This document shows, piece after piece, positions 3,333 to 36,672 of a stretch of 36,672 nucleotides of DNA. The first letter of the stretch is position 1, and every line of letters begins with the position of its first letter. The DNA is taken from the IMG/VR virus record IMGVR_UViG_3300000893_000002, positions 1-36,672 of that record. One strand, given 5' to 3'. Position numbers and translations under genes: made by a program. A model generated the notes under the pieces. The model had not been told where the DNA came from. It saw nothing but the letters and a program-made list of their open reading frames with translations, and ran no database searches. This DNA is from a virus.

Positions 3333-3883
3333 GGCACTGGAAGGAAAACGATTAAACCCGTCACGTTCAAGGTCCCCATTATGTTGAACGGACCCGCCAT
3401 CACAAGCACCCTTCCGGACGGGACAAAGACAGTATCGGCCGGGGGCACGTTGTTACGCACGAATCCGTTGTGATCGAAAAGAGTGAGCCATCCGGCCTGA
3501 GTCAGGTATTTATCGGTCGGCCCCTCCGGAATGTCATCGGTCTCGAGGGAGACTGCTCCCGTCTTGCCGTTGACCGACGTAACGCCCGTTACGCTCGGCG
3601 TCCCGCTGGTTCCGCTTCCGCTCGAGGATCCGCTGCCAGACGCTGCGGCTGCGGTCTTGCCGAGGGGCTGGTTTGTGGCTTGGGTGATCCGCTCGTTAAT
3701 CGACCGCTCGGCGTCCTGCGTCCAGAGCGCCATGGCCTGATCGTGCGCTGCCAGCGCCTGGGCGAATTGCACCCCCTGCTTGAGGGAGTCCGATATCTTC
3801 GGCATCGGACGGAGCTTGAAGTCCGCCGCGAAGCTGGCCGGAGCCGCCGCGACCAGTGCCTCAAAATTGGGGTTCTTGGCCAT
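3329..3883 (-). CDS. Fibre-like virion protein with SVNGKTG module
   Basis: 184 residues. Residues 1-75 are helical. A Gly/Ser-rich hinge follows, then TSVNGKTGAVSLETDDIPEG and a DKYLT segment, a widely shared phage tail-fibre motif. The C-terminal part, about 45 residues, is strand-rich (RVLVMAGPFNIMGTLNVTG) and hydrophobic, fitting a trimeric fibre or a docking surface. The start ATG overlaps the nozzle-like gene's TAA (TAATG) and the end overlaps the next gene (ATGA), so three fibre/tail genes are translated in tight coupling. Family assignment rests on motif memory; the receptor is unknown. Confidence 0.7.
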   Translation of the reverse strand: MAKNPNFEALVAAAPASFAADFKLRPMPKISDSLKQGVQFAQALAAHDQAMALWTQDAERSINERITQATNQPLGKTAAAASGSGSSSGSGTSGTPSVTGVTSVNGKTGAVSLETDDIPEGPTDKYLTQAGWLTLFDHNGFVRNNVPPADTVFVPSGRVLVMAGPFNIMGTLNVTGLIVFLPVP

Positions 3884-5892
3884 TAGAAGTTTTTGGTCCG
3901 CCCGCCTGAGCCTAACTCCGCCTCGAGCGACGAGAATATCGCGTCTCCGCCGACGCCGGCAATCGTCAGCTCAATGTAGAGGAAGCGCCCGACTCGGTAC
4001 AGGTGCCAGTGCGCCCGCTCGACCGGTTGCGTATTGGCCGCGAGGTGCTGCGCCTGGTTGCGCGCGGTGTGGTAGGCAATGTCCTGCCCGCTGTGCTGGT
4101 GGAACACGATGCCAACGCCGGTATTCGGGTCCGCAGGTTGGGCCGATATCCCGACCCGGAGGACGACCTGCAATGGCGGGTTCTGCTCCTGGGGCTCGAA
4201 TTTTATCTCGAGCTGCGTCAGCTTCACCAGCGAGTCCGAGGCGAAGGCCGGAGCAAATCGGAGTATCGAGGTAATCGGGTCGAGCGTGTAGCTCCCAAAG
4301 GCCGCGCTATATCCGTTGGAGTCAGTAATCCCGACCGCCGTCGGGTTCTGGCACATTTCCCGGTAGAACACTCCGCCAAGCTGTTTGATGCACCAGTCGA
4401 CCGACGAAGCCGCGATCAGGATGGGCTCGGGTTTGCATGTGCGGCAAATCTCGTCTATCCGCAAACCTCCCAGGAGAGCGCAAAGGCTATGAATGCTCGA
4501 GTGCGGCTGAGTGTAGTCCTCGACGTTTTTGCCGGCGCCAGCGACCGCGAGCGGGATCGTCGTGTAGATGGCGTCTGGCGTAAAGGGGGCGCTTCCTGCC
4601 GGCAGGACGCGGGGGAGCTGCTGGTTGCCGTAGGGATAGCCTTGGCCGGCGAGCCCGGAAATCGTGCAAATCTCGTTCTCGACAATGAAGTCCCTGATCG
4701 TCGGGACGTCCTGCGGTGCAAACTGGGCAATGGTCGTGAAGCCGTGATCGACAATGTCCGCTACTTCATACTTCCGGTTAATCCGGAGCGTGTAGTCGGG
4801 GCAGTGGTTTGAAGCGCCTTTCCGAGCGATAGAGTACAGCACCTCGTCAGCATCGACGCCCGAGACATGGGCATCGCAAGCGTCCGGGTCGATGTTCGCG
4901 AAAAAGTCGAAACTCGCACGATGGAGCCACTCAGGTCGATCTGGTGCAGTGAAATACTGACCAAAGAAGTAAATGCCCTCGCGTCCGACGTAGCTATGGA
5001 GGTCATGGATATTGGTAAGCGTGTTGGCGTAGGCCAGACACGCCTTCCGCTCATCCTCTTCACCATTATAGACCCTGCGGAAGTCAAAGGACTGGTCCCC
5101 GCCAACGGCAATCATTTCCCAGATCCCGTGCGTCGTATAGATGAAAAACGAATTGCCGACCGGTTTGCCGGCAAGAATCTCCTCGTAGGTGAACAGGTCC
5201 TTAAAGCCCGTGATCGATTGCAGGTTCGCGGGGTCGAACTGCGTCGGGTTGTTGTAGTCCGACCAGACGATCCGGTAAGGCGCCCGCTCCTGGCCCATCG
5301 TTACGTTGGCCAAGAAAAGGACGTTTTTCCAAGCCCATATCACCTTGGCGCGGGACAGCTCGATTGTGTCGAGGTCGTCGAAGGTGAGCATGTACTTGCC
5401 GCTGATCGGGTCCGCTGCCTGGTCGAGCCTCAGGTACTGGGGCTTGTCATGGTCATTGGTGAACGCGACAAAGTCTCCGACCTGAGCGGCGTGGAAACGG
5501 GGCGCGAGGGCGTCGGTCGAGAAGGTCCCGCCGAAGCCGGTCCCGAGGACACGATAACCTCCGGAATGCGCGTCCAACTGCGCGACCGTCTGCTGAGTCG
5601 CGACGAACAGCGAGCGCACCTGGGTCGTAGTGATCGCCTGATAGAGCAGCGTGACCGGTTGACGGCCGCCTGCGCTCGAGAGGGCTAGGAGCTGGTCGTG
5701 GAAATCGGAGTTGTTGTAATTCGCCACGCTGAGGAGCTTTTTGAAACCAGAGCCGCGGCGGAGCGTTCCGGAGCCGACGGTTTGAAAGTTCTGGCGCATC
5801 CGCAGCCCGTTTGAGGCAAGCAAATCGGGGACGGACCGGAGGTCGAGCACTCCGGTCAGCGGGCTAATGGGCCTGATAGCAGGAGGAGGCAT
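3883..5892 (-). CDS. Tail nozzle / tail-tubular-protein-B-like protein
   Basis: 669 residues from the ATG at 5892, 13 bases after the previous stop. The frame stays open further upstream, but that extension lies inside the preceding gene and is not used. The N-terminus (SNGLRMRQNFQTVGSGTLRR, then GSGFKKLL) and the central block with KVIWAWKNVLFLANVT and PYRIVWSDYNNPTQFDP resemble the repeated blades of podovirus nozzle or stabilisation proteins (T7 gp12, P22 gp10 type), where each blade pairs a sensor strand with an RIWWSD-like turn. The C-terminal 200 residues are beta-rich and may contact fibres. It would close the tail tube below the adaptor. No signal peptide or membrane segment. Confidence 0.75.
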   Translation of the reverse strand: MPPPAIRPISPLTGVLDLRSVPDLLASNGLRMRQNFQTVGSGTLRRGSGFKKLLSVANYNNSDFHDQLLALSSAGGRQPVTLLYQAITTTQVRSLFVATQQTVAQLDAHSGGYRVLGTGFGGTFSTDALAPRFHAAQVGDFVAFTNDHDKPQYLRLDQAADPISGKYMLTFDDLDTIELSRAKVIWAWKNVLFLANVTMGQERAPYRIVWSDYNNPTQFDPANLQSITGFKDLFTYEEILAGKPVGNSFFIYTTHGIWEMIAVGGDQSFDFRRVYNGEEDERKACLAYANTLTNIHDLHSYVGREGIYFFGQYFTAPDRPEWLHRASFDFFANIDPDACDAHVSGVDADEVLYSIARKGASNHCPDYTLRINRKYEVADIVDHGFTTIAQFAPQDVPTIRDFIVENEICTISGLAGQGYPYGNQQLPRVLPAGSAPFTPDAIYTTIPLAVAGAGKNVEDYTQPHSSIHSLCALLGGLRIDEICRTCKPEPILIAASSVDWCIKQLGGVFYREMCQNPTAVGITDSNGYSAAFGSYTLDPITSILRFAPAFASDSLVKLTQLEIKFEPQEQNPPLQVVLRVGISAQPADPNTGVGIVFHQHSGQDIAYHTARNQAQHLAANTQPVERAHWHLYRVGRFLYIELTIAGVGGDAIFSSLEAELGSGGRTKNF

Positions 5893-5905
5893 CAGATTGA
5901 GTTTG

Positions 5906-6580
5906 TCAGGTGACGATGTAAATGTAGACGCCGAGGTAAGGCGGAATGATATCGTGCTTGTTGGCGTCGTCGTTGGCGCGAATCGTGACCGGACCGTGCT
6001 GCAGGAAGGGCGAGGAGCTAATGCCGCCGAATACCTCCCCGTTAATTTCAAGCGTCCAGATCGACTCCTGGCCTCCGGTCTGGGCGTCTCCGTCATCCTG
6101 ATGGGTCGTGACGATATACGAGCCCTGCTCGAGCGGAGCGAGCTTGTGCTGGTCCTCGCCTCCGGCCACTCCGACCGCGACCGTACCGGCTGCGGCAAAA
6201 GAGCCGATGCCTACCGGGAATTTGGCCTGGTAATTCGGTAGCCTGAAGTTGCCGGCGGTCGAGGTCCCGTAGATGCCGGAGGTCCCGCCGAGCGCGGCGG
6301 AAAGGTCCGGGTAGGTAACAGTCGGCATGTCGCGCCCGTCGGCTAGGAGGCGTGTGCCGTCCTCGGGCAACGTGACTGCGGAGAAGATTAGTGAACCGGT
6401 CGGCAGCGACTGGTTGACGAGCGCCTTGCTCGGGTTGCCGCTCGAGTCGAACAAATAATTGACGAGCTTCCAGATCAGGACCGGGAGCTTCAGGAGCGAG
6501 CTGACGAAGTTGGAGCAGAGCCCGGAGCTGGGGTCGCTGATACAAGCCTTAAAGTCGTCGGGGACTACTGGTGCTGGCAT
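5906..6580 (-). CDS. Phage tail-collar-domain fibre protein
   Basis: 224 residues. The core fits the phage tail collar family: LPTGSLIFSAVTLPEDGTRL, then a LLADGR turn, YPDLSAALGGTSGIYG, a NFRLPNY segment and GIGSF. The protein ends NKHDIIPPYLGVYIYIVT, close to the usual N-x-x-PPY-x-x-x-YIIK-type end of collar and microcystin-dependent proteins. Residues 1-60 contain a short helical anchor with LPVLIWKLVNYLF. It starts 3 bases after the upstream stop. Likely a short fibre or adhesin distal to the nozzle; the ligand is unknown. Confidence 0.85.
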   Translation of the reverse strand: MPAPVVPDDFKACISDPSSGLCSNFVSSLLKLPVLIWKLVNYLFDSSGNPSKALVNQSLPTGSLIFSAVTLPEDGTRLLADGRDMPTVTYPDLSAALGGTSGIYGTSTAGNFRLPNYQAKFPVGIGSFAAAGTVAVGVAGGEDQHKLAPLEQGSYIVTTHQDDGDAQTGGQESIWTLEINGEVFGGISSSPFLQHGPVTIRANDDANKHDIIPPYLGVYIYIVT

Positions 6581-6583
6581 AGG

Positions 6584-7792
6584 TTAGGCAAGTGTTCGCC
6601 CCCACGTAAACCGGAAGGTGAGACTGAGGGTTTGCGTGTTGGCCTTGGTTTGTGCTTGGGCAAACAGGAACGTGAGCCCCTGAGCGCTTGGCATGGTTGG
6701 CAGCGTGTCCGGGCCGAAACCGCCCGGAATGAAAATCCCAATACCCATTGAGCGGAGGTCGTTCCGGTTGGCCTCACCGACGTCGAAAGTACCGGTCTTG
6801 TCCCGCAGATAGGTCCCGTTGCTGTAGGAGGCGAGAGTTACCGTCTCGCGTGAGGCGTTGGTCGAGCGGTCCGGAATGCTTCCGCCCAAGGTCCCAAGCG
6901 CCGAGGAGTCGGGGGAGACCCATATCTGCGCGGCATTGTTCGATGGGTCAAGGGCGTTTGAGAATCCGGCGCCAGAAGTGTCCACTCCTCCAATCAGGAG
7001 GTTCTGGAGCTGCTCGTTGCCGTCCGTGTTCACACTCGGAGAGACCGGCCAGCCGGATATTACAGCCGTCTTTGACCGTGCGGTGTCCGGGGTGCAAGTC
7101 ACGTTGAGCTGATAAACGACCCGGAGCCTCTGGCCAGAGGTGAGCGCCACGGGGCTCCCGAGCAGGATCCGGCTAAAGACATTGGTGTTGGGCGTCGAAC
7201 TCGGGGAAAAGCCAATCTCGGTGTAGTTGACCGGACCGGCCTCGGTCGAGAAATCGGTCGTGCGCTTCAGCTCAACCACGTTGCCGACGATAGTCGTACC
7301 GCAGTTGCCGGAGCCGGCAAGGTAAGTGTTCGAGCGCTTCACCTCGGTTTGCAGACCGACCTGCGCCGTTTTCCAGATTGTGAATGACGTCGAGGCTACG
7401 CTCTGTGACGGGCTCGCCTGGACGTGATGAGCGTCGGTTATCGAGGTGATGGTCGCCTCCTCGAGCGTGGAGAATTTGATCACGTCTCCGACCGCTGCGT
7501 CCGTCGTGAAGTCGATTAGCCCTCCGGACGAGGTTACGGTGTTTGCCGCTTGGCTCGCGTTGGTCGCCAGCGAAGCGATCGAGGTCGGACGGGTGCCCGT
7601 GCCGGCGCATGCGTAGGCGAAACAGTTGGCAAAGGAGTTGGTCGCGACCAGATCCATACCGGCGTTGAGGATCAGGTTCTTCTTAAACTCCGGCATCTCC
7701 CACACGATCTTATCGTCCGGGCCGACGATGGCCACTTTGTAGAAGCCTTGGAGCTTTGCGCTGACACCGTTAATCAAGAGATTCTTTTTCAT
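6584..7792 (-). CDS. Tail fibre / virion surface protein
   Basis: 402 residues from ATG at 7792 (MKKNLLINGV), 4 bases after the previous stop. The N-terminal EFKKNLILNAGMDLVA matches the short motif (F-x-N-L-I-x-x-x-G-L-D) that begins many phage fibre and baseplate-associated proteins. The rest is Thr/Ser/Gly-rich beta sequence, with a C-terminal strand set ending in TQTLSLTFRFTWGRT. No enzyme motif seen. It lies between the repeat protein and the collar fibre, so a surface-exposed appendage is the best reading. The frame extends upstream to 7918, but that part lies inside the preceding gene. Confidence 0.65.
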   Translation of the reverse strand: MKKNLLINGVSAKLQGFYKVAIVGPDDKIVWEMPEFKKNLILNAGMDLVATNSFANCFAYACAGTGTRPTSIASLATNASQAANTVTSSGGLIDFTTDAAVGDVIKFSTLEEATITSITDAHHVQASPSQSVASTSFTIWKTAQVGLQTEVKRSNTYLAGSGNCGTTIVGNVVELKRTTDFSTEAGPVNYTEIGFSPSSTPNTNVFSRILLGSPVALTSGQRLRVVYQLNVTCTPDTARSKTAVISGWPVSPSVNTDGNEQLQNLLIGGVDTSGAGFSNALDPSNNAAQIWVSPDSSALGTLGGSIPDRSTNASRETVTLASYSNGTYLRDKTGTFDVGEANRNDLRSMGIGIFIPGGFGPDTLPTMPSAQGLTFLFAQAQTKANTQTLSLTFRFTWGRTLA

Positions 7793-7796
7793 AGGT

Positions 7797-8363
7797 TCAA
7801 ACAAGTGCGCCTGACAGAAACCCGACGTCGAGACTATCAGCGGCGGAATGGTCCTCCACGAAAACCGTAACGACGGCCGCCCCCGAATGGAAGGCACTAT
7901 CAAGGCTCCCGCCGTCACTCTGGGACGTGCTCAAGATGACGTCCGTCAGGGCGCCGGCATTGAAGGCCGAGTCGAGGGACCCGTCCGCAGATTCGCTATC
8001 CGTTAGAATGATCGTGAGCAGCTCGCCGCTCTGGAATGCGACGTCCTCGTTGCCGTCGTCGGACTGGTCCGGAGCGCTGATGACGATGTTGAGCAGTGCG
8101 CCAGACAAAAAGGCCGAGTCAATCAGCGGATAGTCAATCGGGTAAGGCGCGTTGGCCAGACTGCCAAACAGGAAACTCGCGTTGACCGATGCCATGTCCG
8201 AGAAGCCCGAGGCGGTGACAATGTCCGGAGGCGCGACGACGCTGCCGCCTCCTATGGGCGCCCGGTACTCGATCAGGTTGACCTGAAACGCGGTATTGGG
8301 CGTCTCGTCCACATTGGGCGAGGTCAGTTGGCCGCCGTCGTCGTTAAGGTTTGGTAAGTTCAA
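7797..8363 (-). CDS. Virion-cluster protein with 24-residue tandem repeats
   Basis: 188 residues from a TTG at 8363, which follows an in-frame stop closely and overlaps the upstream gene by 20 bases. A GTG (residue 18) or the ATG at residue 57 are alternatives. From residue 82 to the end lie four 24-25 residue repeats plus a partial fifth, each built as D-S-A-F-x-S-G-A-L then a run of Val/Ile and an Asp/Ser-rich turn. The protein is acidic and beta-rich with Gly-Ser turns. I do not recognise a named family. It stands between adaptor and fibre genes, so a repetitive tail decoration or fibre shaft is likely. The start is uncertain. Confidence 0.65.
   Translation of the reverse strand: MNLPNLNDDGGQLTSPNVDETPNTAFQVNLIEYRAPIGGGSVVAPPDIVTASGFSDMASVNASFLFGSLANAPYPIDYPLIDSAFLSGALLNIVISAPDQSDDGNEDVAFQSGELLTIILTDSESADGSLDSAFNAGALTDVILSTSQSDGGSLDSAFHSGAAVVTVFVEDHSAADSLDVGFLSGALV
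7800..8120 (-). repeat. Protein-level tandem repeat, 24-residue unit
   Basis: Within the 188-residue gene, units begin at residues 82, 107, 131, 155 and 179 (last one partial). Each unit starts with Asp-Ser/Val-Ala/Gly-Phe, continues with x-Ser/Ala-Gly-Ala/Glu-Leu, and then carries a hydrophobic strand and an acidic Ser-rich turn. The DNA copies have diverged considerably, so the repeat is old rather than a recent expansion. Confidence 0.7.
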
Positions 8364-9927
8364 GGGTGTCGATCAATTCCCCGTCTTTAGTCCAAAACTC
8401 CGAAACAAGGCTGGCATCCTTGGCCGTTATCTTCAGGGCGCCGGCTTTCGCCGCGTAGCTGCTCCGCGTGTCGACGCTGGCATAGATGCCGAGAGGCTGG
8501 AATGGACCCAGACCGCCGAGCCCGTTATTGATTACCGGCAGTCCGGAAATGTCGAGCCGCTCATAGTTGAGCGCCTGGGAGCTGATGACCAAGTCGGCGC
8601 CCCAAGTCTTAAAGGGCCATTGCAGGTTTGCGTCGTTGTAGAGCGAGCCCCAGGCGTCGTGCCACATGATGACGATCTTCCATCGCGCCGTTGACGCCGC
8701 GAGCGCGGCCTGAAGCCAAAGCCCCTGGGTGCTGCCCGCCGTGTTTCCGTCAGGCTCGCTGGTGCTCGAGTCGACAAAGAAAATCTGAGTGTCCCCGACC
8801 GTGACGAAGTAATAGCGCTCGTTGTTGGCCAGCGGGAAAAATCCTCTGAAGGTAACAAGGCTGTCGAAGTCCCAATCGAATTGACTCGGGCCGGCCCAGA
8901 GCAAATTGCCGTTGTCCGCCCCGTCCCCCTTGTTTCCGGAGTAAGGGTCGAGGTAATCGTGAAACTGGTCGCCCGCGGTAGCGTCGTAATCGGTCTGGAC
9001 GTCGTTGATCCAGCCTGTGCCGAGGATGGCCATTGGTCCCCAGTTGCGGATGAGGCGCCCGACGTCGTCCAGGTCCTCCCCGAGGAAAGACGGGTTGCCC
9101 GTGTGCGCGAGCACCAAGTCCGTGACGCCCGGAATGAAGGCGTCGTCGGCAATCTCCGCGCAAATCCTGTTCCGCTCGTTGGTCTGCGGGAATTCGTCAT
9201 GGGTCCGCAGCCGCTCGCGGCATTCATGGATCAGGGTCGCCAGCGCCTCATCGAAGAGCCCCGAGTGCGTGTTGTTGTGGAAGGCCATTGCGTCGGCCAT
9301 CGACCCGTAATCCCGCTCATGCGCGTACTGCATGAAGAGCTTGACCGCGCTCCGGTACATTATCTCGGAGTTGATCAGGTCGTTGTCCTCCCACTGGGTT
9401 TTGATCCCCTTCCACTCGACGACAACCAGTTCGTTAGACTGGATCCATGGGGCGATATAGATGTTTCCCTGGTAAACCGCCCAGATCGCCGTCCGTGCGC
9501 GACCGTAGAGACTGTCGTTATCCGAGGTTGGATACCCGAAGCCGAGCGGCAGCTTGCCCGCCTTGGTGAAATCCGGCGCCGGGGAAAGGTAAAGATTCAG
9601 GGCCCAGGACTCGGGCTCGGGCCATTGGCGCTGCCGCACAAAGACCGGATCGGTGAAGTTCTCGTTAGCAACCGTGAAAACCCGCTGGACGATGCCCCGA
9701 GGCGCGGGGATTACCGTCATGCCGTTTTTATAGAACGTCTTTTCAAAACGGTAGGTGTTGACGTTGTCGTCCCGCTCGCAAGTGACCCACTTGGCAATCT
9801 CGGCAAAAGCCTCCTGGAAGTGGGTGTCGTGAGCCGTGACCAAGTTCTCGTACTCGCCACTGGCCCAGATCGTATTGCGAATATCAGTCTTTAGCTGAAG
9901 GACTGTTTTTGTCTTTTCCCTTGGCAT
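8344..9927 (-). CDS. Head-tail adaptor fused to an inactivated metallophosphoesterase-like domain
   Basis: 527 residues, two parts. Residues 1-245 look like a podovirus head-tail adaptor (tail tubular protein A / gp11 class), with QGNIYIAPWIQSNELVVVEW and a W-x-D-x-D-L-I-x-S-E-I-M helix. Residues about 265-527 align in order with calcineurin-like metallophosphoesterases: YDATAGDQFHDYLDPYSGN, NERYYFVTVGDTQIFFVDS, SEPDGNTAGSTQGLWLQAAL, LQWPFKTWGADLVIS, NYERL, a NGLGG turn and a C-terminal Gly-Ala-Leu-Lys-Ile strand. The metal ligands are replaced: GDN reads GTG (302-306), GNHD reads AGPSQFDWD (345-353), and GHxHxYER reads SSQALNYER. Start ATG 9927 overlaps the previous gene by 44 bases. The adaptor is fairly secure; the pseudoenzyme reading is inference. 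Confidence 0.8.
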   Translation of the reverse strand: MPREKTKTVLQLKTDIRNTIWASGEYENLVTAHDTHFQEAFAEIAKWVTCERDDNVNTYRFEKTFYKNGMTVIPAPRGIVQRVFTVANENFTDPVFVRQRQWPEPESWALNLYLSPAPDFTKAGKLPLGFGYPTSDNDSLYGRARTAIWAVYQGNIYIAPWIQSNELVVVEWKGIKTQWEDNDLINSEIMYRSAVKLFMQYAHERDYGSMADAMAFHNNTHSGLFDEALATLIHECRERLRTHDEFPQTNERNRICAEIADDAFIPGVTDLVLAHTGNPSFLGEDLDDVGRLIRNWGPMAILGTGWINDVQTDYDATAGDQFHDYLDPYSGNKGDGADNGNLLWAGPSQFDWDFDSLVTFRGFFPLANNERYYFVTVGDTQIFFVDSSTSEPDGNTAGSTQGLWLQAALAASTARWKIVIMWHDAWGSLYNDANLQWPFKTWGADLVISSQALNYERLDISGLPVINNGLGGLGPFQPLGIYASVDTRSSYAAKAGALKITAKDASLVSEFWTKDGELIDTLELTKP

Positions 9928-10647: not shown

Positions 10648-12489
10648 TCAGTACAGGTTGGAATATGACGGGTTCGCCGTGTAGCCCACGGTCGTCGGAG
10701 GACCTGCGGCTACGCCCATGATCCAGACCGAGTTAGCAGGGCACTCTACGATTGCCGTGCAGGTCTCGCTGATGAGCGTTATTTCCTCCGTGATGTTTTC
10801 CATCGTGCAGGCAAACGTCGGGTCGATTCGAGCGAGCTGCTCAATCTCACCGAGGGTCCGCACCTTCCGGTTGGTCGCGATCATACCGGGGTAGATCGTG
10901 CCTCCCTTGGGTCCGGGTTTGCCGATATCCAGAATGAGCATCATTCGACCAGCCGAGTCGATATTCTCAGTCGTGAAGGCGTTGAGGATATCGTCGAAAA
11001 ACTCATGCGTCACAATGGCGATCGTCAGACCGGCCGGGAATTTGACCTTGTACTTCCTCCAGTAGAAGCCAAGCTCGTTTGACCCTTCCTCGATCACGAT
11101 ACGGACAATGTCACCATACTCCTTGCGGTAGTAGCTGATCATCGCGGACTCGAAATCGGCCGCGGTCTGGTTGTCCGTAAAAATGTCGATGGTGTCGACG
11201 ACTTTGCCCTGCGACTTGCGGGCGCGCATGATGTTGTAAATCTCCTTCAGCAGCTCGTAGAGGTTGAGGCTCTGGTTTTGCAGGTCGCGGACGCGATCGC
11301 AAGCCAGCATCTGCTCAAACACTCCGACCATGTTGGCCCGGTAGGCAATGATTTTGCCGCCCGTCCCTGGGTCTACGCTGCCACCAGAGACCGTGAGGAT
11401 CTGCTCGAGGCTCTGCCAGTTGGAGAGGGTCTGGTTGGCGGAAATCTTCTTACCGTAGAAGAAGCTGTTAAGCCAATTCCGCTGCCACATTTCCTCGTCC
11501 TGCCGGTTGCGCTCGGCAAGGTCCAAGTCACCGAACTGACGGAAGTACTCGTTTGACTCCATCAGCCGCTCGAAAACCTTCTTATATTCCGAGTCTACGC
11601 GACGACCTCGGCGCATCGTCTGAAACCAGAACGGAACGCGCTTTCTCGGGTCCAACGTAGGCCGGTTCTGACACCAGCTTTCGTAGTCGTTGACGTTGTT
11701 GCCGCCGGCGAGGAGGACGCCAGACGTCGGGGTCGGGTCATACGGAGTTGCCGAGCCGGCATTCTCCGAGGTGATCAGAACGTCGACGTAGCTGAAGTCG
11801 GCAGCTACTGCGGAGGCGAGTACCTTCCATTGGCCAATGACGGTTTGCCCGCCAATGCGCCCGAAGATATGCACACGGTCGCGGTCCACGAACCACTTGG
11901 GGTCAAGGTCGATGCCGTAGCGGGAAACGACCCGGATAACGCGGTCGCCAGCAACGCCGAGCGCGAGCTGCCCGGAGGTGAGGGGACCAGTAACTCCGGC
12001 GGTGTAGGCGCTCTGCGCCTGACCGGACGCGACTGCCCAAAACTCCTTGTTCACTACCGAGTCTTGCCGACCCAGAATGAAAGGTTTAAGCAGCGAAGGC
12101 CCGCGGTCGACCTTCTCGTAGGAGAGCAGGCTCCCTACGTTGCGCTGACTGGACATGACCCAGTCATACATTCCGTTGACCTTGATCCCGCAAGCCTTCA
12201 TCTCGAACGCTGTGCGAAACCAACTGTCCATGTCCGCAAACAGGCCGTTTGGGCGGAACAGGTTTTCAAGGTCCGTTGGAGTTAGGTGTGCTACGCTCGC
12301 CCGCGTGATCGTCCCATGGGTATCGAAGTTATTCGATACGACGACCGTACAGGGAGTTTCCTGGAAACGCCGCGACGTGCTCGTTACCGCCAAGAATGGC
12401 AGAGCACAGAGGGCGCTGAGAGCCCATATCGGGCTGAGGAGGAAGGCCGCTACGAACAGCAGGCCATACCAACAGTTTTTTTGTCTCAT
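10648..12489 (-). CDS. Probable major capsid protein with odd hydrophobic N-terminus
   Basis: 613 residues from the ATG at 12489; the frame also opens at a TTG at 12540 directly after the scaffold stop. Assignment rests on order (portal, scaffold-like, this, double terminator) and size class, plus globular capsid-like text; I see no diagnostic motif. Residues about 6-34 are strongly hydrophobic (YGLLFVAAFLLSPIWALSAL), like a signal peptide or membrane anchor, which is unusual for a capsid protein. The mature part may start later, near the SRRFQETP segment, by processing or by an internal TTG start. The C-terminus carries three Cys (FACTMENI, SETCTAIVECPAN). If it is not the capsid, no other candidate is visible in the window. 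Confidence 0.7.
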   Translation of the reverse strand: MRQKNCWYGLLFVAAFLLSPIWALSALCALPFLAVTSTSRRFQETPCTVVVSNNFDTHGTITRASVAHLTPTDLENLFRPNGLFADMDSWFRTAFEMKACGIKVNGMYDWVMSSQRNVGSLLSYEKVDRGPSLLKPFILGRQDSVVNKEFWAVASGQAQSAYTAGVTGPLTSGQLALGVAGDRVIRVVSRYGIDLDPKWFVDRDRVHIFGRIGGQTVIGQWKVLASAVAADFSYVDVLITSENAGSATPYDPTPTSGVLLAGGNNVNDYESWCQNRPTLDPRKRVPFWFQTMRRGRRVDSEYKKVFERLMESNEYFRQFGDLDLAERNRQDEEMWQRNWLNSFFYGKKISANQTLSNWQSLEQILTVSGGSVDPGTGGKIIAYRANMVGVFEQMLACDRVRDLQNQSLNLYELLKEIYNIMRARKSQGKVVDTIDIFTDNQTAADFESAMISYYRKEYGDIVRIVIEEGSNELGFYWRKYKVKFPAGLTIAIVTHEFFDDILNAFTTENIDSAGRMMLILDIGKPGPKGGTIYPGMIATNRKVRTLGEIEQLARIDPTFACTMENITEEITLISETCTAIVECPANSVWIMGVAAGPPTTVGYTANPSYSNLY

Positions 12490-12540
12490 TGCTTTCCGGC
12501 TCGGGGCGGTCCTAGCTGGTCGCCCGTTGCGCGGAAGCAA

Positions 12541-14090: not shown

Positions 14091-14408
14091 CTATTCAGGT
14101 TTGGTTGTTATCGGTCGCGGAAGGATCTTGGAGTTGGGCGGAGTGTAGGTCCGGTCAACAAACTGGATCATTATCTCCCAGGCCGCTTGATACCTCCGGG
14201 CCTCGGCGGCTTTCTGTTCCGCTTCGATCTTGCTTGGTTCGCTGCCGTCGACTAGCGCGTTGCCAGCCTCGGCGGTAAGTGTAGCAGCCTGGTTTGCGAG
14301 GAAACTGACGAAAATCTCGAAAGCCGGTTGCGTTAGCCATTCGCGGACTTGCTTAACTTGGGCCTCCGGCCATGGCAGGTGCTGGAGGTGTATTGTTGGT
14401 GAACTCAT
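14091..14408 (-). CDS. Small helical protein between portal and scaffold
   Basis: 105 residues, strongly helical with a coiled-coil-like middle (SKIEAEQKAAEARRYQAAWE). Its ATG at 14408 overlaps the portal gene by 56 bases, and no nearer start exists. I do not recognise a family. Position next to portal and scaffold suggests an assembly or core-related helper. The last codon plus stop (TAG) supplies part of the ribosome site of the scaffold gene, which ties the two together. Confidence 0.6.
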   Translation of the reverse strand: MSSPTIHLQHLPWPEAQVKQVREWLTQPAFEIFVSFLANQAATLTAEAGNALVDGSEPSKIEAEQKAAEARRYQAAWEIMIQFVDRTYTPPNSKILPRPITTKPE

Positions 14409-16728
14409 CGGCTGCTGGATTTGGCGGGTTCTTCAGCGCCTCAGCGAGGGTCTGAATATCCTGCGCGTTCTTCTCGGTTTGCTGGATGACTGGCTTCAAC
14501 TGGTTAAGGACAGCCTGCGTGACCTGCTGGAGCTGCCCCTGTGCGGCCGCCTGCTGCTGCTCGGGTGAGGCGCCGGCCGGCGTGACGTCCTGCAACTGGA
14601 AGTCACGGTCGAGACCTGCGAGCTGGCCGATCTTGTTGGCCAACTGAATCGCCTGCTGCGAGCCGATAGCCTGGGCGGTCATCGGATTTGCCATGAGGGT
14701 TTGCACAAGCTGCGCCATGACCTGAGCCGTCGCGGCGTCGTTCATGCGGTCGTCTCCGTCGCGGGTCGCCGCAATCTCCCATAGCTCGATCGCCGTGTTC
14801 TGCTTTTTGACCTTGACCCTGCGATGACGGTCCTGCGGATGGAAAGCCGAGTCTCCGTCCTCGGCAAAAGTGAATCCCATGGCCTTCAGCACGTCGGCGG
14901 AAAGCGGGATATCGGTCGCAACGTGGACGTACATGTCCTCATCCCCGAAAGCCATCAGCCCGTTATAGAGCTGGCGCTTCCATGCGTCCCGGTAAATGTC
15001 TACCGGTGTGCTGGTGAAGAGCAGCCGCGTTGACGTCGAGGCGGCAATGTTACGCACCTCCTCGCGGGTTTGCTCATGGCTGGCTGCTTGTGCGACCTCA
15101 TGGCTGCTCATCACCAGCACCCGCTCGAGCACGTCGAGGATGGTTCGCATCACATTGATCAGCTCCGCCACATTACCCTTAGGCAGTGTGTGATTGATCA
15201 CTGCCTCCTGGATTTTGTTCTGCGCCCGGACGGCCTGCTTGCCGCTGAAGGGCACGAAATTCAAACTGCGGAAAATCTTTTCACCGAGGTTTTTGATAAC
15301 GCTCTTGCCCTCGGTAGTGATCTGGTCCTCGTCGACGAAAGTAATGTTCGAGAGGTTCTGCTTCGCGGTCATCACGATCTGCGTGAGTATGTTCGAGAAT
15401 TGGTCCTGGAAGGGCAGAATCTCGAGCGAAAGGCTCGCGTTATTGGTGCGCGACTCGTCGGCGTCGTAGCCGAGGTAAAGGATCGGACAGTAGGGCAAGG
15501 GCTCGGCATAGAGGAACGTCGAGACGTCGCCGGCAATCACGAATCTGAACCAGACCGGATAATCGTAGTCGCCCAGTCCGTTTTGCGCGGGGATGAGCTT
15601 CTCGAAATGTTCCGTCGTCAAAACACCCTGGTCGAGGTGATCGGTCCCGTAATAGAGGTAGGCCAGTTGCTTCTCCCGATCCATGTCGCCAATCCCGGCG
15701 CCGGTTTGAGCCAGTAGCGTATTGCCGTCGTTGGTCTTCTTCGGGAGCACGGGCATAAGCAACGTGCAAGCGGAGTAGACGGTCGCGAAAAACGTCCGGT
15801 GATCGACAACGAGGGAGTTAGGCCCGACGCTGATTTGCTCTTTGTTCCAGAATTGGGAATTGACGATATCCCGGTAGCGCCGGATCGACCAGTAGCCGCC
15901 AAACTCGCAGCCCGTATCGTAGTTGTACGTGTAGGCCCCATGGTTCAAGTCCCGGTAGAAGCGCGTCGGATGCGGATGATGGTAGCGCAGCCCCTCCTTG
16001 ACGACGACCTCGATTAGCTCCCCCTCCTTCTTGGCGCGGCCTATAGCGACGTCCTTTTTGTCGGCATGCTTCCATTGCTTCTCATGGTGCCATGACTCCT
16101 TGGGGAACTGAAAACACCAGCCGTAGTGCAGCATCTTCAGGACGGCCTGCTTCATCACGTCGTAGTAACCGTACTGGTTGCTCATCTCCTGAATCCGGTC
16201 CGTGATGGCTCCGCACTTGAGCCGGTTGACCGCAGTCGCTTTGACGGGGTCAAACTTGAAAAACGGGATGAGGCGCCGATCGTTCATTATCTTCGCCCAT
16301 CGGATAGTCACGTAGGCCCGGACCAGAGGCACGAAAATGTTGAAGAACATCGGCAGGTTGAAGGTCTTTTTGCCGGTCGGCTTGCCCGTGCGCGAGTCCA
16401 GCTCCTGATCGATGAGGTGCGTCAGCCCCAGCTCAGTCACCATTTTCTGCACCTGGTCGTCGTCGAGCGTGTCTCCGCGCTCAATGAAGTAGCCGAGCAA
16501 GGTCGGACTGATCTGCCGGAAAGGGGTCTCCCATGCCACGTCCAGCGCGTGGTACAGGCGATAGTCGATGAAGTTGCGGTTCATCCCCTCCTGAATGCGC
16601 GAGCGAATGCGCTGCCAGAGTGCGACCCGTCCGTCGGTCGCGTTCCAAGTCAGGGGATTGCCGGCAAGTTGGCCTTTGAGGAAATCCTGAGTGATCCCCC
16701 GGTCCCGCAGTATCTTGATATCAACCAT
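14353..16728 (-). CDS. Portal protein
   Basis: 791 residues, in the size range of large podovirus portals. The start overlaps the previous stop as TAATG. The N-terminal region has the portal-type helix-loop body (LYHALDVAWETPFRQISPTL), the middle carries a FNLPMFFNIFVPLVRAYVTI stretch and a long beta/loop wing, and the C-terminal 120 residues are Gln-rich with a coiled coil (TEKNAQDIQTLAEAL) that would form a barrel. It should sit at the capsid vertex as a twelve-fold ring, binding terminase and adaptor. The assignment is by size, position and overall look; no short signature exists for this family. Confidence 0.75.
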   Translation of the reverse strand: MVDIKILRDRGITQDFLKGQLAGNPLTWNATDGRVALWQRIRSRIQEGMNRNFIDYRLYHALDVAWETPFRQISPTLLGYFIERGDTLDDDQVQKMVTELGLTHLIDQELDSRTGKPTGKKTFNLPMFFNIFVPLVRAYVTIRWAKIMNDRRLIPFFKFDPVKATAVNRLKCGAITDRIQEMSNQYGYYDVMKQAVLKMLHYGWCFQFPKESWHHEKQWKHADKKDVAIGRAKKEGELIEVVVKEGLRYHHPHPTRFYRDLNHGAYTYNYDTGCEFGGYWSIRRYRDIVNSQFWNKEQISVGPNSLVVDHRTFFATVYSACTLLMPVLPKKTNDGNTLLAQTGAGIGDMDREKQLAYLYYGTDHLDQGVLTTEHFEKLIPAQNGLGDYDYPVWFRFVIAGDVSTFLYAEPLPYCPILYLGYDADESRTNNASLSLEILPFQDQFSNILTQIVMTAKQNLSNITFVDEDQITTEGKSVIKNLGEKIFRSLNFVPFSGKQAVRAQNKIQEAVINHTLPKGNVAELINVMRTILDVLERVLVMSSHEVAQAASHEQTREEVRNIAASTSTRLLFTSTPVDIYRDAWKRQLYNGLMAFGDEDMYVHVATDIPLSADVLKAMGFTFAEDGDSAFHPQDRHRRVKVKKQNTAIELWEIAATRDGDDRMNDAATAQVMAQLVQTLMANPMTAQAIGSQQAIQLANKIGQLAGLDRDFQLQDVTPAGASPEQQQAAAQGQLQQVTQAVLNQLKPVIQQTEKNAQDIQTLAEALKNPPNPAADEFTNNTPPAPAMAGGPS

Positions 16729-30913: not shown

Positions 30914-31203
30914 AGCACCCCCAGAATGTCGTCCCCATGGCAGAGGCGGAATGTTCCGGCCTGTCCCTCAATGCTGATGGGTTCAAAGCCGACCTCCGCC
31001 ATGAGGATCCGGTCGTCTTTAGCGACCGTAATTGGAATAATCCGGACCTGCATCGAGTTCAGGCCGTCTCCGACCAGCTTGACGATCCCGATCGTCGGGT
31101 CGTACTGACGCTGGTCGGGGAGCTGAAGCTCGGATTTGATCGGGTCCAGAAGGACGAGGACCCGATGGCCGAAAAGGGCTTTTGGTATGTGCGGTATGTT
31201 CAT
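30910..31203 (-). CDS. GroES-like (cpn10 fold) protein
   Basis: 97 residues. The start (ALFGHRVLVLLDPIKSELQL), a G-I-V-K-L-V-G-D-G strand, then a EPISIEGQAGTFRLCHGDDI segment ending ILGVL follow the GroES layout (Arg-Val-Leu-Val, Gly-Ile-Val, and a final Glu/Asp-Asp-Ile-Leu-x-Val). The mobile loop that touches GroEL should be near residues 23-38 and reads differently from bacterial GroES. Phages such as T4 (gp31) carry their own co-chaperonin to fold the capsid protein. Start overlaps the methyltransferase stop as ATGA. Confidence 0.6.
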   Translation of the reverse strand: MNIPHIPKALFGHRVLVLLDPIKSELQLPDQRQYDPTIGIVKLVGDGLNSMQVRIIPITVAKDDRILMAEVGFEPISIEGQAGTFRLCHGDDILGVL

Positions 31204-32528
31204 GGTGTTAATGCTAGTGCTGTTTGACTGTCTCTTGCGTCCGAGAGCCTGATGTACTCCTCGGAAATCTCAATGCCGGTGTAGCGCCGGCCAAGCTCAA
31301 CGCATGCCTGGGCGGTCGTGCCGACGCCGTGAAATGGATCCAAAACCGCGCAGGGCGGGAACTGGTTGCCCCAACACTCACAGGTCCTTTTCCAGCCGAT
31401 TGTTTTGCGCTCGCGCATGCCGGCCAGTATCCGCCGTTTGACGTCGCCCGGATTTTGGGCCTTGGACTCTTTGACTCCGGGTCGGCTCTCGCCGTGATAT
31501 TCCCCGAGGGTGTCTCCGCCGCACTTCTTCTGGTGCTCCCGGTCGGGCTCGCCAAGCTCAACGATCCGCTCCCGCGGTCGACCGCAGGTAAAACAGCATC
31601 CGCCCTCGGAGGTGGATACCTCGATAATCGGGCGCACCAGCGAAACGGGATAGCTCGCGAAATGGCTCAGGACCGTTCCCTTTGGGTTTACCACCAGCGC
31701 CAGCGGGTCGCCGTCCTCATCCCCGAGCAGTCCCTCCCATGACTGGAGGAAAAGGTCGGTGTTTCTCCAGTTGCGGTGAGTGACCAGATAGTCGGACGTC
31801 GCGCCCTGAAAGCTCTGGTTTTGCTTCACGCCGATCTGCGCCTGAGCTGCCTTGGGGTTCGTTCGCCGGCGCCTGCGGTTGTCGTCGCTGACTCGGTCGC
31901 CACGATGAGGGAATACCGCCGCGCGCGGGTGCGTGTTGCCGCTGGCCCGGACCCGGACCGCGTCCCGGTCGTAGTAGTAAAACCGGTCTTTTGAGAACAT
32001 GCAGAAGTACTCGAGCGCGTTGACCGGCCTGTCCTCGACCGACTCGGGCATGCAATTCCGTTTGATCCAAGGGCACATTGAGCGGAGGATCCAGCCTGCT
32101 CCCTGCAAGTCCATGGCAACCCTCTGCGGCAGTAAGAGCAATTCCTTACACTTCAAACCAAGGGGGTCTTTTGGCCGGAACACTCCGTTGGACGGATGGT
32201 CGTCTTTTTCCCGACCCATCACTTTCGCCGTCGGGTCGTAGGTCCTCCGGGCGCCGGCAGTGTAGCGATCCCCGAGGTTGATCCACAAAAGGCCGTCATT
32301 GCGGAGCACCCGCCAGACCTCGGTGAACACCTCGCGCAAGTGGTAAAGGTATTCCTCGAGGGTTTCCTCGGTCCCTATCTCCTGATGCTTGCGCGGGTGT
32401 CCTGCCGGCAGGTAAGACCTCAGCCCCCAATACGGCGGACTCGTCACGCAGAGCTGGAAGCTCTTGTCGGGGATCTGCTTCAGGACCTCGCGGGCGTCCC
32501 CGCAGTATTTCTCAGGGATGATTTTCAC
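31200..32528 (-). CDS. N4/N6-type DNA methyltransferase (beta class)
   Basis: 442 residues from a GTG at 32528 (GTGA overlap). Motif IV VTSPPYWGLRS (residues 28-38) lies near the start and motif I CAVLDPFHGVGTTAQACVEL near the end, the beta-class order. A Cys-rich insertion (GCCFTCGRPRERI and a later TCECW) forms a probable zinc site in the target-recognition region. Several basic stretches (DDNRRRRRTN) suggest DNA contact. It would methylate phage DNA and help it escape host restriction. No paired restriction enzyme is next to it, so an orphan enzyme. Cytosine-N4 or adenine-N6 cannot be decided. Confidence 0.9.
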   Translation of the reverse strand: MKIIPEKYCGDAREVLKQIPDKSFQLCVTSPPYWGLRSYLPAGHPRKHQEIGTEETLEEYLYHLREVFTEVWRVLRNDGLLWINLGDRYTAGARRTYDPTAKVMGREKDDHPSNGVFRPKDPLGLKCKELLLLPQRVAMDLQGAGWILRSMCPWIKRNCMPESVEDRPVNALEYFCMFSKDRFYYYDRDAVRVRASGNTHPRAAVFPHRGDRVSDDNRRRRRTNPKAAQAQIGVKQNQSFQGATSDYLVTHRNWRNTDLFLQSWEGLLGDEDGDPLALVVNPKGTVLSHFASYPVSLVRPIIEVSTSEGGCCFTCGRPRERIVELGEPDREHQKKCGGDTLGEYHGESRPGVKESKAQNPGDVKRRILAGMRERKTIGWKRTCECWGNQFPPCAVLDPFHGVGTTAQACVELGRRYTGIEISEEYIRLSDARDSQTALALTP

Positions 32529-35475: not shown

Positions 35476-35867
35476 ACCATAGTCCAGAGCACTCCTCTGT
35501 GAAGGTGCAGTATCCCGAGCCGTCCGGGCTTTCGCTCGCAGACGGCCTGGTAACAGACAACGTCCCGGTAGTTGTAGCGCAGACCGTTGATAATCGGCAG
35601 GCTCATCCAGGAGCTTTTGTCCTGATGTGATAAGGGCGCTGCGGGCCGGCGCAGTGCGAGGGGAATGCCGCCTGAGCGGTAATCGTCATCGGTCATATAC
35701 TCGAGCCAATGGGTGTTTGTTTTGAGCGGTACGTATTCGTCGGAGTCCAGCTCGCGGGAGAAAGCGTTAGCGGTCAAAATGAAGGGCACAATGATTTGCG
35801 TGTCGGGCATCTGGCGCGACGTGCTGATCCACTCGGACAGGTCGAAGGTGTCTTTAATCCAAATCAT
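35472..35867 (-). CDS. Uncharacterised protein upstream of DnaB
   Basis: 131 residues from ATG at 35867; its ATGA overlaps the stop of the right-edge frame ending at 35864, and its own stop overlaps the DnaB start. Beta-rich with IWIKDTFDLSEWISTSRQMP and INGLRYNYRDVVCYQAV. Two Cys, many Trp and Tyr. I do not recognise it. Coupling to DnaB suggests an early or replication-linked role. Confidence 0.6.
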   Translation of the reverse strand: MIWIKDTFDLSEWISTSRQMPDTQIIVPFILTANAFSRELDSDEYVPLKTNTHWLEYMTDDDYRSGGIPLALRRPAAPLSHQDKSSWMSLPIINGLRYNYRDVVCYQAVCERKPGRLGILHLHRGVLWTMV

Positions 35868-36672
35868 ATTTCTATTCCCGCCCTTTTGAGTAGCTCCACA
35901 AGAGCAACCGCTGCACAGAGCGCCACGACTGCGTTACCTGTGCACCTGAGCTGATCGATTCGGCTCTCGTCCAGAACCACGGGGCGCCCATCAGCCACGC
36001 CGCGAAAGCGGGGTTCAACCGCGGGCGCGAGCCACGGGTAGCGCTCGAGGATGGCGGGCCATCTTGGGTCGTCGGGGCCTGGGGCGAAAAGGAATGGACT
36101 TGTCGCGCTAATTGGTCTTTCCGATCCCTTATGCTTCCGTCCGGGTCGATGCCCGTCTCGCTCATGCCCGGAGTGTCCTTCCAGTCCCGTGCGCTCGGGG
36201 TCGCCCAGTTCCGCGCTACGGCATGCAGGCTGTCCTCCGAGCCCGGATGGTTCCCGATCGACTCCCCGTCCTCCGCGCGCGGGCTCGGCCAGTTGCTCGC
36301 CATTGCCTGCAGGGCAAGCCCCGTTGTGCTCCGTTCGCTCTTCGCGTAATCCGGACCGCCCTCGCTCGCCTTGGGCGTCGACCATTTGCTCGCCTGGTCC
36401 TGCAACGTGACCTGCATCTTGGTCCCCGTTTCGTGTTCCCCGCGTTCCACTGCCTCCGGGCTCCTGCATCTGCTGCCGCCCGTCGGCGCGTCCGGGGTCG
36501 CCCATTTGCTCGACTGTCCAGTCAGCGTCTCGCGTTCCATCCCCTTCACCCCATGGTCCCGCGTGAAGTCGCCCGCTTCGTGCGCTCGAGGAGTCATCCA
36601 CTGGCGGGCGTTGATCGCCAGATTGCTCCCCGCCCCGGGCCGCTCCGTCTCCCGCTGGATCGCCTCGTCGCT
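35864..36672 (-). other. Overlapping second frame with methyltransferase-like ending
   Basis: The frame one base off the main right-edge gene is also open to the window edge. Its last part, ESRIDQLRCTGNAVVALCAA, is the closing motif of C5 DNA methyltransferases, and the text before it, YPWLAPAVEPRFRGVADGRP, matches the usual preceding segment. Its stop TGA overlaps the next ATG (ATGA). It may be the real C-terminus reached by a minus-one shift, a separate overlapping gene, or a chance mirror of the main frame. Confidence 0.3.
35872..36672 (-). CDS. C5 DNA methyltransferase-like protein, N-terminus beyond the right edge
   Basis: 267 codons, open to the edge, so the catalytic N-terminal half is missing. 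The visible part has four WATP/WSTP/WPSP-type units (for example RNWATPSARDWKDTPGMSET) and then LNPAFAAWLMGAPWFWTR, which I know from the variable region and end of phage cytosine methyltransferases. Codon third positions are strongly G/C-rich in this frame, supporting coding. The motif with the catalytic Pro-Cys would lie outside the window, so activity cannot be judged. Genes further upstream, to the right, are unknown. Confidence 0.65.
   Translation of the reverse strand, partial: SDEAIQRETERPGAGSNLAINARQWMTPRAHEAGDFTRDHGVKGMERETLTGQSSKWATPDAPTGGSRCRSPEAVERGEHETGTKMQVTLQDQASKWSTPKASEGGPDYAKSERSTTGLALQAMASNWPSPRAEDGESIGNHPGSEDSLHAVARNWATPSARDWKDTPGMSETGIDPDGSIRDRKDQLARQVHSFSPQAPTTQDGPPSSSATRGSRPRLNPAFAAWLMGAPWFWTRAESISSGAQVTQSWRSVQRLLLWSYSKGRE

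Follow-up and report, generated by a model that had tools for sequence, protein, structure and literature searches.

A predicted phage head-to-tail adaptor extended by a purple acid phosphatase fold without metal ligands

What can a phosphatase fold contribute to a phage structural protein once every residue that would hold its metals has been replaced? The question is raised by a 527-residue protein encoded in the virus record IMGVR_UViG_3300000893_000002, of which 36,672 bases (here called the window) were analysed. An earlier note on this DNA had described the protein as a virion adaptor fused to a calcineurin-like phosphatase domain, placing the latter in residues 265–527, which indeed correspond to positions 8344–9135. 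The reading frame is open throughout, the codon-position composition of the two halves of the gene is similar, and a relative with intact motifs matches the protein over its full length (35% identity, E 2e-101). The layout, with the evidence for each part in brackets, is as follows.

8344–9927, minus strand: adaptor–phosphatase fusion gene, 527 residues
9193–9927, minus strand: probable head-tail adaptor domain, residues 1–245 (AF2 model and Foldseek matches)
9127–9192, minus strand: linker, residues 246–267 (alignments and descriptions of T7 gp11 and SU10 gp11)
8347–9126, minus strand: predicted purple acid phosphatase (PAP) fold without metal ligands, residues 268–527 (AF2, PDB fold search and PAP profile matches)

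The protein has no homologue in 50,697 phage records and no match to a PHROG family; as a single sequence it gave chance matches only in the PDB, and the search of genome contigs yielded no adaptor relatives. The two halves were characterized from predicted folds, each being modelled and searched separately.

The N-terminal half gave an AF2 model of moderate confidence (pLDDT 79.7, pTM 0.69), with helices at residues 9–20, 27–47, 189–207 and 225–245 and a beta ‘dock’ region at 55–173, and the up-down helix bundle with a beta dock insertion is present. Foldseek returned 13 PDB matches at E <= 0.001, every one from phage tail or portal complexes, the best being SU10 (7z47, E 5.6e-7) and A4 (9k09, E 1.7e-6), with further matches to VP1, GP4, KHP30, crAss001 and Pa223 chains. 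The TM-scores of these matches are low (0.27–0.44), so the assignment leans on gene order too; the sequence profile of the adaptor had no match to solved adaptors. The gene sits between the capsid gene (identified by position) and the nozzle gene, and the T7-like order portal, capsid, adaptor, fibres, nozzle is kept across relatives. In the window this order is made up, besides the fusion gene, of the following.

14353–16728, minus strand: probable portal protein (PHROG head-tail adaptor, 0.075; VP1 portal profile match, E 0.0086; kept in nearly all relatives)
10648–12540, minus strand: probable major capsid protein (position only; in nearly all fusion loci, at up to 93% identity)
6584–7918, minus strand: protein resembling tail fibres, in the variable stretch that follows the adaptor (E 2.8e-19 to phrog_4176 tail fiber)
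3883–6198, minus strand: nozzle-like tail protein, start codon uncertain (matched by phmmer to the nozzle of phage VP1, E 2e-4, and in PHROG to a virion structural protein, 1.5e-19)

On predicted fold and gene order together, residues 1–245 are probably a podovirus-type head-tail adaptor with the fold of the SU10, A4, VP1 and GP4 proteins, as the earlier note had supposed. The linker that follows would occupy the place of the portal-embracing segment of the T7 and SU10 adaptors, and in alignments it is partly conserved even in L013, a relative without the phosphatase domain. The window also holds a 188-residue ORF after the adaptor (7797–8363, minus strand) with ‘DSAFxSGAL’-like repeat units and no family match, and two DNA methyltransferase-like genes (31200–32528 and 35864–36601, both minus strand; PHROG 3e-52 and 6e-19). 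What follows the adaptor in L013, L020, L021 and L023 is a gene for a von Willebrand A domain, accompanied in L013 and L020 by a bacterial Ig-like domain; such a gene is absent after the adaptor in the window.

With 12 relatives included, AF2 predicted the C-terminal half confidently (pLDDT 88.3, pTM 0.88), and the best PDB fold match of this model was rat PAP (1qfc, E 5.6e-13, TMq 0.72), followed after the mammalian PAPs by plant PAPs, GAP50, GpdQ, Rv0805 and Vps29. The family profile matched PAPs and GAP50 only among PDB sequences (best E 1.4e-8). Model and profile agree, and at the level of predicted structure they confirm a metallophosphoesterase (MPP) fold of the purple acid phosphatase type, bearing out the phosphatase resemblance claimed for this half. 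The window protein itself does not reach the PF00149 cut-off, its only such signal being to PhoD at 15.7 bits against a cut-off of 27; the five intact relatives that were tested do pass PF00149 (Metallophos E 3e-12 to 3e-16), which, when whole records were searched, matched intact members only. Annotation by curated cut-offs thus overlooks domains of this kind. The best BFVD match, A0A6J5NEL2 (554 residues), may, judged from its length alone, be another fusion.

Within this fold the active site is gone. In alignments, from which rather than from model coordinates its geometry was judged, the eight positions that read DDYNHHHH in intact relatives read NWDQFWQL in the window (N278, W306, D309, Q349, F350, W422, Q451 and L453): none of the seven PAP metal ligands is retained, and the catalytic His is replaced too. 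In rat PAP numbering we take these positions to be D14, D52, Y55, N91, H92 (catalytic), H186, H221 and H223. The alignments place them as follows.

9094–9096, minus strand: N278, in place of the motif I Asp (GDxG), the register of this motif being the least certain of all
9010–9012, minus strand: W306, in place of the motif II Asp (GDN)
9001–9003, minus strand: D309, in place of the PAP-type metal-binding Tyr
8878–8883, minus strand: Q349-F350, in place of the Asn ligand and catalytic His of GNHD
8662–8664, minus strand: W422, in place of the HxPP His
8569–8577, minus strand: Q451-A452-L453, in place of HxH in GHxH

For motif I, the first MAFFT alignment shifted L026, and a local alignment restored the L026 Asp. 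The earlier claim that every expected metal motif is replaced is upheld, but its exact pairings are not: GDN aligns with GWI, which starts at the last G of the proposed GTG; GNHD aligns with SQFD, the Asp being kept, rather than with PSQF; and the residues aligned with GHxH are SQAL. Motif I (GD to GN), the PAP Tyr and the HxPP His, all absent from that list, are lost as well. Of the 77 positions shared by four or all of the five intact members considered, the window retains 0/8 at the active site against 51/69 (74%) elsewhere (Fisher p 7e-5), which argues for a loss centred on the active site rather than for general decay.

The same fusion, which the earlier note had proposed looking for in other phages, occurs in about sixteen IMG/VR contigs besides the window, with intact as well as lost ligands; all members come from metagenomic contigs. 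Six distinct fusions are intact (L021, L023, L025, L026, L027 and L050/L052), each with DDYNHHHH except L021, which lacks the Tyr. Seven are degenerate (the window, L002, L003, L007, L012, L016/L017 and L018/L019; L004 is a partial near-copy of L002), L022 is partly degenerate, and L109 is degenerate with the ligand string EGFADN--, its protein being ended by the contig end. The adaptors of L013, L014 and L020 carry no PAP domain. That the domain had moved to another gene in these three was considered and rejected, as no MPP domain was found elsewhere in their records, two of which are short contigs. In the related adaptor L060:4356–6494, DUF5977 repeats at the C-terminus (3e-23) replace the phosphatase domain, and its dock region contains a long insertion as well. 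The intact fusion L027:7980–10079 has a 134-residue intein in its adaptor half (residues 94–227; Hint_2 2.9e-8, Intein_splicing 4.7e-6). A fecal-phage match, MT835841, was rejected as a fusion, being a stand-alone secreted-type MPP.

Beyond adaptors, 930-residue proteins (L101:3012–5804, L102 and L103) end in a PAP-type domain whose GNHD and GHxH motifs are intact; by eye they look like tail nozzle proteins, an identity that the PDB sequence search did not confirm. A PAP-type domain also ends the 1363-residue protein L107:1776–5867 and lies inside the 1984-residue protein L110:2694–8648, and these two cases suggest a module that is mobile among phage proteins.

Which state came first can be read from cellular relatives (35–41% identity; Hymenobacter, Chloroflexota, Actinomycetota and others), all eight active-site residues being kept in the 7/7 examined. 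A tree with six cellular relatives as outgroup, built after masking the ligand columns, unites the seven degenerate domains in one clade (support 95/91; 96% of bootstrap trees), and since the outgroup uniformly has DDYNHHHH, ligand loss is derived. L022 groups with the intact L025 (support 97/94) and L109 is placed outside the degenerate clade, so that the losses number at least two and probably three, and ligand loss appears to have been recurrent in this domain tree. The adaptor-half tree has weaker support: there the seven degenerate members are not one clade (AU p 0.056), and the domain-less members fall among them, a placement that fits later deletions of the domain.

The dead domain nevertheless appears to be constrained. 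By NG86, comparisons of the window with L002, L003 and L007 give dN of 0.11–0.23 in both halves and dS above 1, and hence a ratio of about 0.1, a rough figure since dS is near saturation; on this estimate the domain is under purifying selection. The former active site behaves differently: in the degenerate clade its positions vary more than the remainder of the domain does (mean entropy 1.63 vs 1.04, p 0.007) and differ even among 80%-identical proteins. The HxPP His position reads W/E/D/Y/A/E/N across the clade, W, E, D and Y belonging to the window and the three relatives nearest to it (71–82% identical). N278 is the sole invariant position of the eight; it counts, with Q436 and, outside the classic site, H275 (6/7) and H323 (7/7), among the residues newly fixed in the clade.

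The adaptor fold, the PAP fold, the total ligand loss, the intact fusions elsewhere and the purifying selection were all computed here. We suggest that the gene product would act as a short-tailed phage's head-to-tail adaptor, to which a bacterial-type PAP domain has been added C-terminally. In its ancestors, and still in some present relatives, this domain is probably an active two-metal phosphatase borne on the virion; in the window's clade it has lost its metal site, while its fold would have been kept as a non-catalytic domain. In T7 and SU10 the C-terminal segment of the adaptor runs around the stem or clip of the portal, and the dock domain holds tail fibres. Because the PAP domain directly follows the portal-wrapping position, twelve copies should ring the exterior of the neck, and this ring, adjoining the capsid vertex and the docks of the tail fibres, may act as a structural or docking collar. 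Given that the pocket is gone and the fold is under selection, we favour such a non-catalytic collar as the fairly probable role of the dead domain; its presence in the virion, its copy number and its location we infer. Such a domain would have a parallel in GAP50, the PAP-fold anchor of Plasmodium that also came up among the fold and profile matches. A counterpoint is that L013, L014 and L020 do without the domain, which is thus not essential to being an adaptor.

Of the two roles suggested in the earlier note, sugar or phosphate binding in the old pocket is disfavoured by the variability of the old ligand positions, and a domain with a structural or docking task at the top of the tail would fit better. 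A related proposal, that the domain binds the host surface, holding a phosphorylated or sugar polymer uncut and giving low-affinity adhesion at the neck, we consider unlikely, if worth keeping in mind. The fold descends from an enzyme that binds phosphate, relatives differ by exchange of both the C-terminal module of the adaptor and the gene after it (BIG2/vWA, DUF5977), as is common for adhesion modules, and N278, H275, H323 and Q436 could make a new site; but the positions that vary are those of the former active site, as the HxPP His illustrates. It is less probable still that the domain is an inert passenger heading for loss, in which catalysis decays and deletion follows, as in L013, L014 and L020. 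The grouping of domain-less adaptors with the degenerate clade would agree with this, as would the L022/L025 pair, in which dN of the C-terminal half is about four times that of the adaptor half, but in the window's clade the two halves evolve at similarly low rates and 74% of the conserved non-ligand positions are retained. Finally, that the ligands were shifted rather than lost, with metal bound through H275, H323, H423, D351 and N278 and some activity kept, is very improbable, for although H275 and H323 are new and conserved and H423 lies one residue past the lost His in the window and L007, H423 is missing in 5/7 clade members, no consistent replacement set exists and 7/8 classic positions vary.

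Returning to the collar, a broader reading would make the adaptor C-terminus a plug-in site, at which a captured bacterial phosphatase was displayed at the neck and turned into a non-catalytic collar in about three lineages (the window clade, L022 and L109), a case of recurrent pseudoenzyme formation to which we give roughly even prospects.

Adaptors, PAPs, a PAP-fold anchor and phage MPP proteins are already known. For the fusion of adaptor and PAP, or for repeated catalytic loss in it, the literature searched holds no description, an absence that is weak evidence given coverage by titles and abstracts with few subscription papers. The protein shares with the T7 gp11, SU10 gp11, A4, VP1 and GP4 adaptors its helix order with a beta ‘dock’, its C-terminal segment and its gene order, but the T7 and SU10 proteins stop once the embracing helix or loop is complete, whereas this one runs on into a 260-residue PAP domain. 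With PAPs (rat, pig and human TRAP, and bacterial secreted-type MPPs such as Hymenobacter L062) it shares fold and profile; it differs from them in having other residues at all seven metal-ligand positions and at that of the catalytic His, and in the fusion of the domain to a virion-type protein. P1312 ORF22, a phage protein with an MPP domain and a carbohydrate-binding module (PMC4569894), and the L101–L103 proteins likewise place an MPP domain in a tail-region or structural-type protein, but they are non-adaptors, and the latter keep the two motifs noted above. GAP50 of Plasmodium, to which the window protein is likened by fold and profile only, is a eukaryotic membrane protein in which a PAP fold serves as the anchor of a protein complex. 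Adaptors were formerly seen as compact parts of the neck, and here one bears a large captured enzyme fold. Related phages have it intact, partly degenerate, dead or not at all, a natural series bearing on the purpose of a virion phosphatase and on the change from enzyme to structure.
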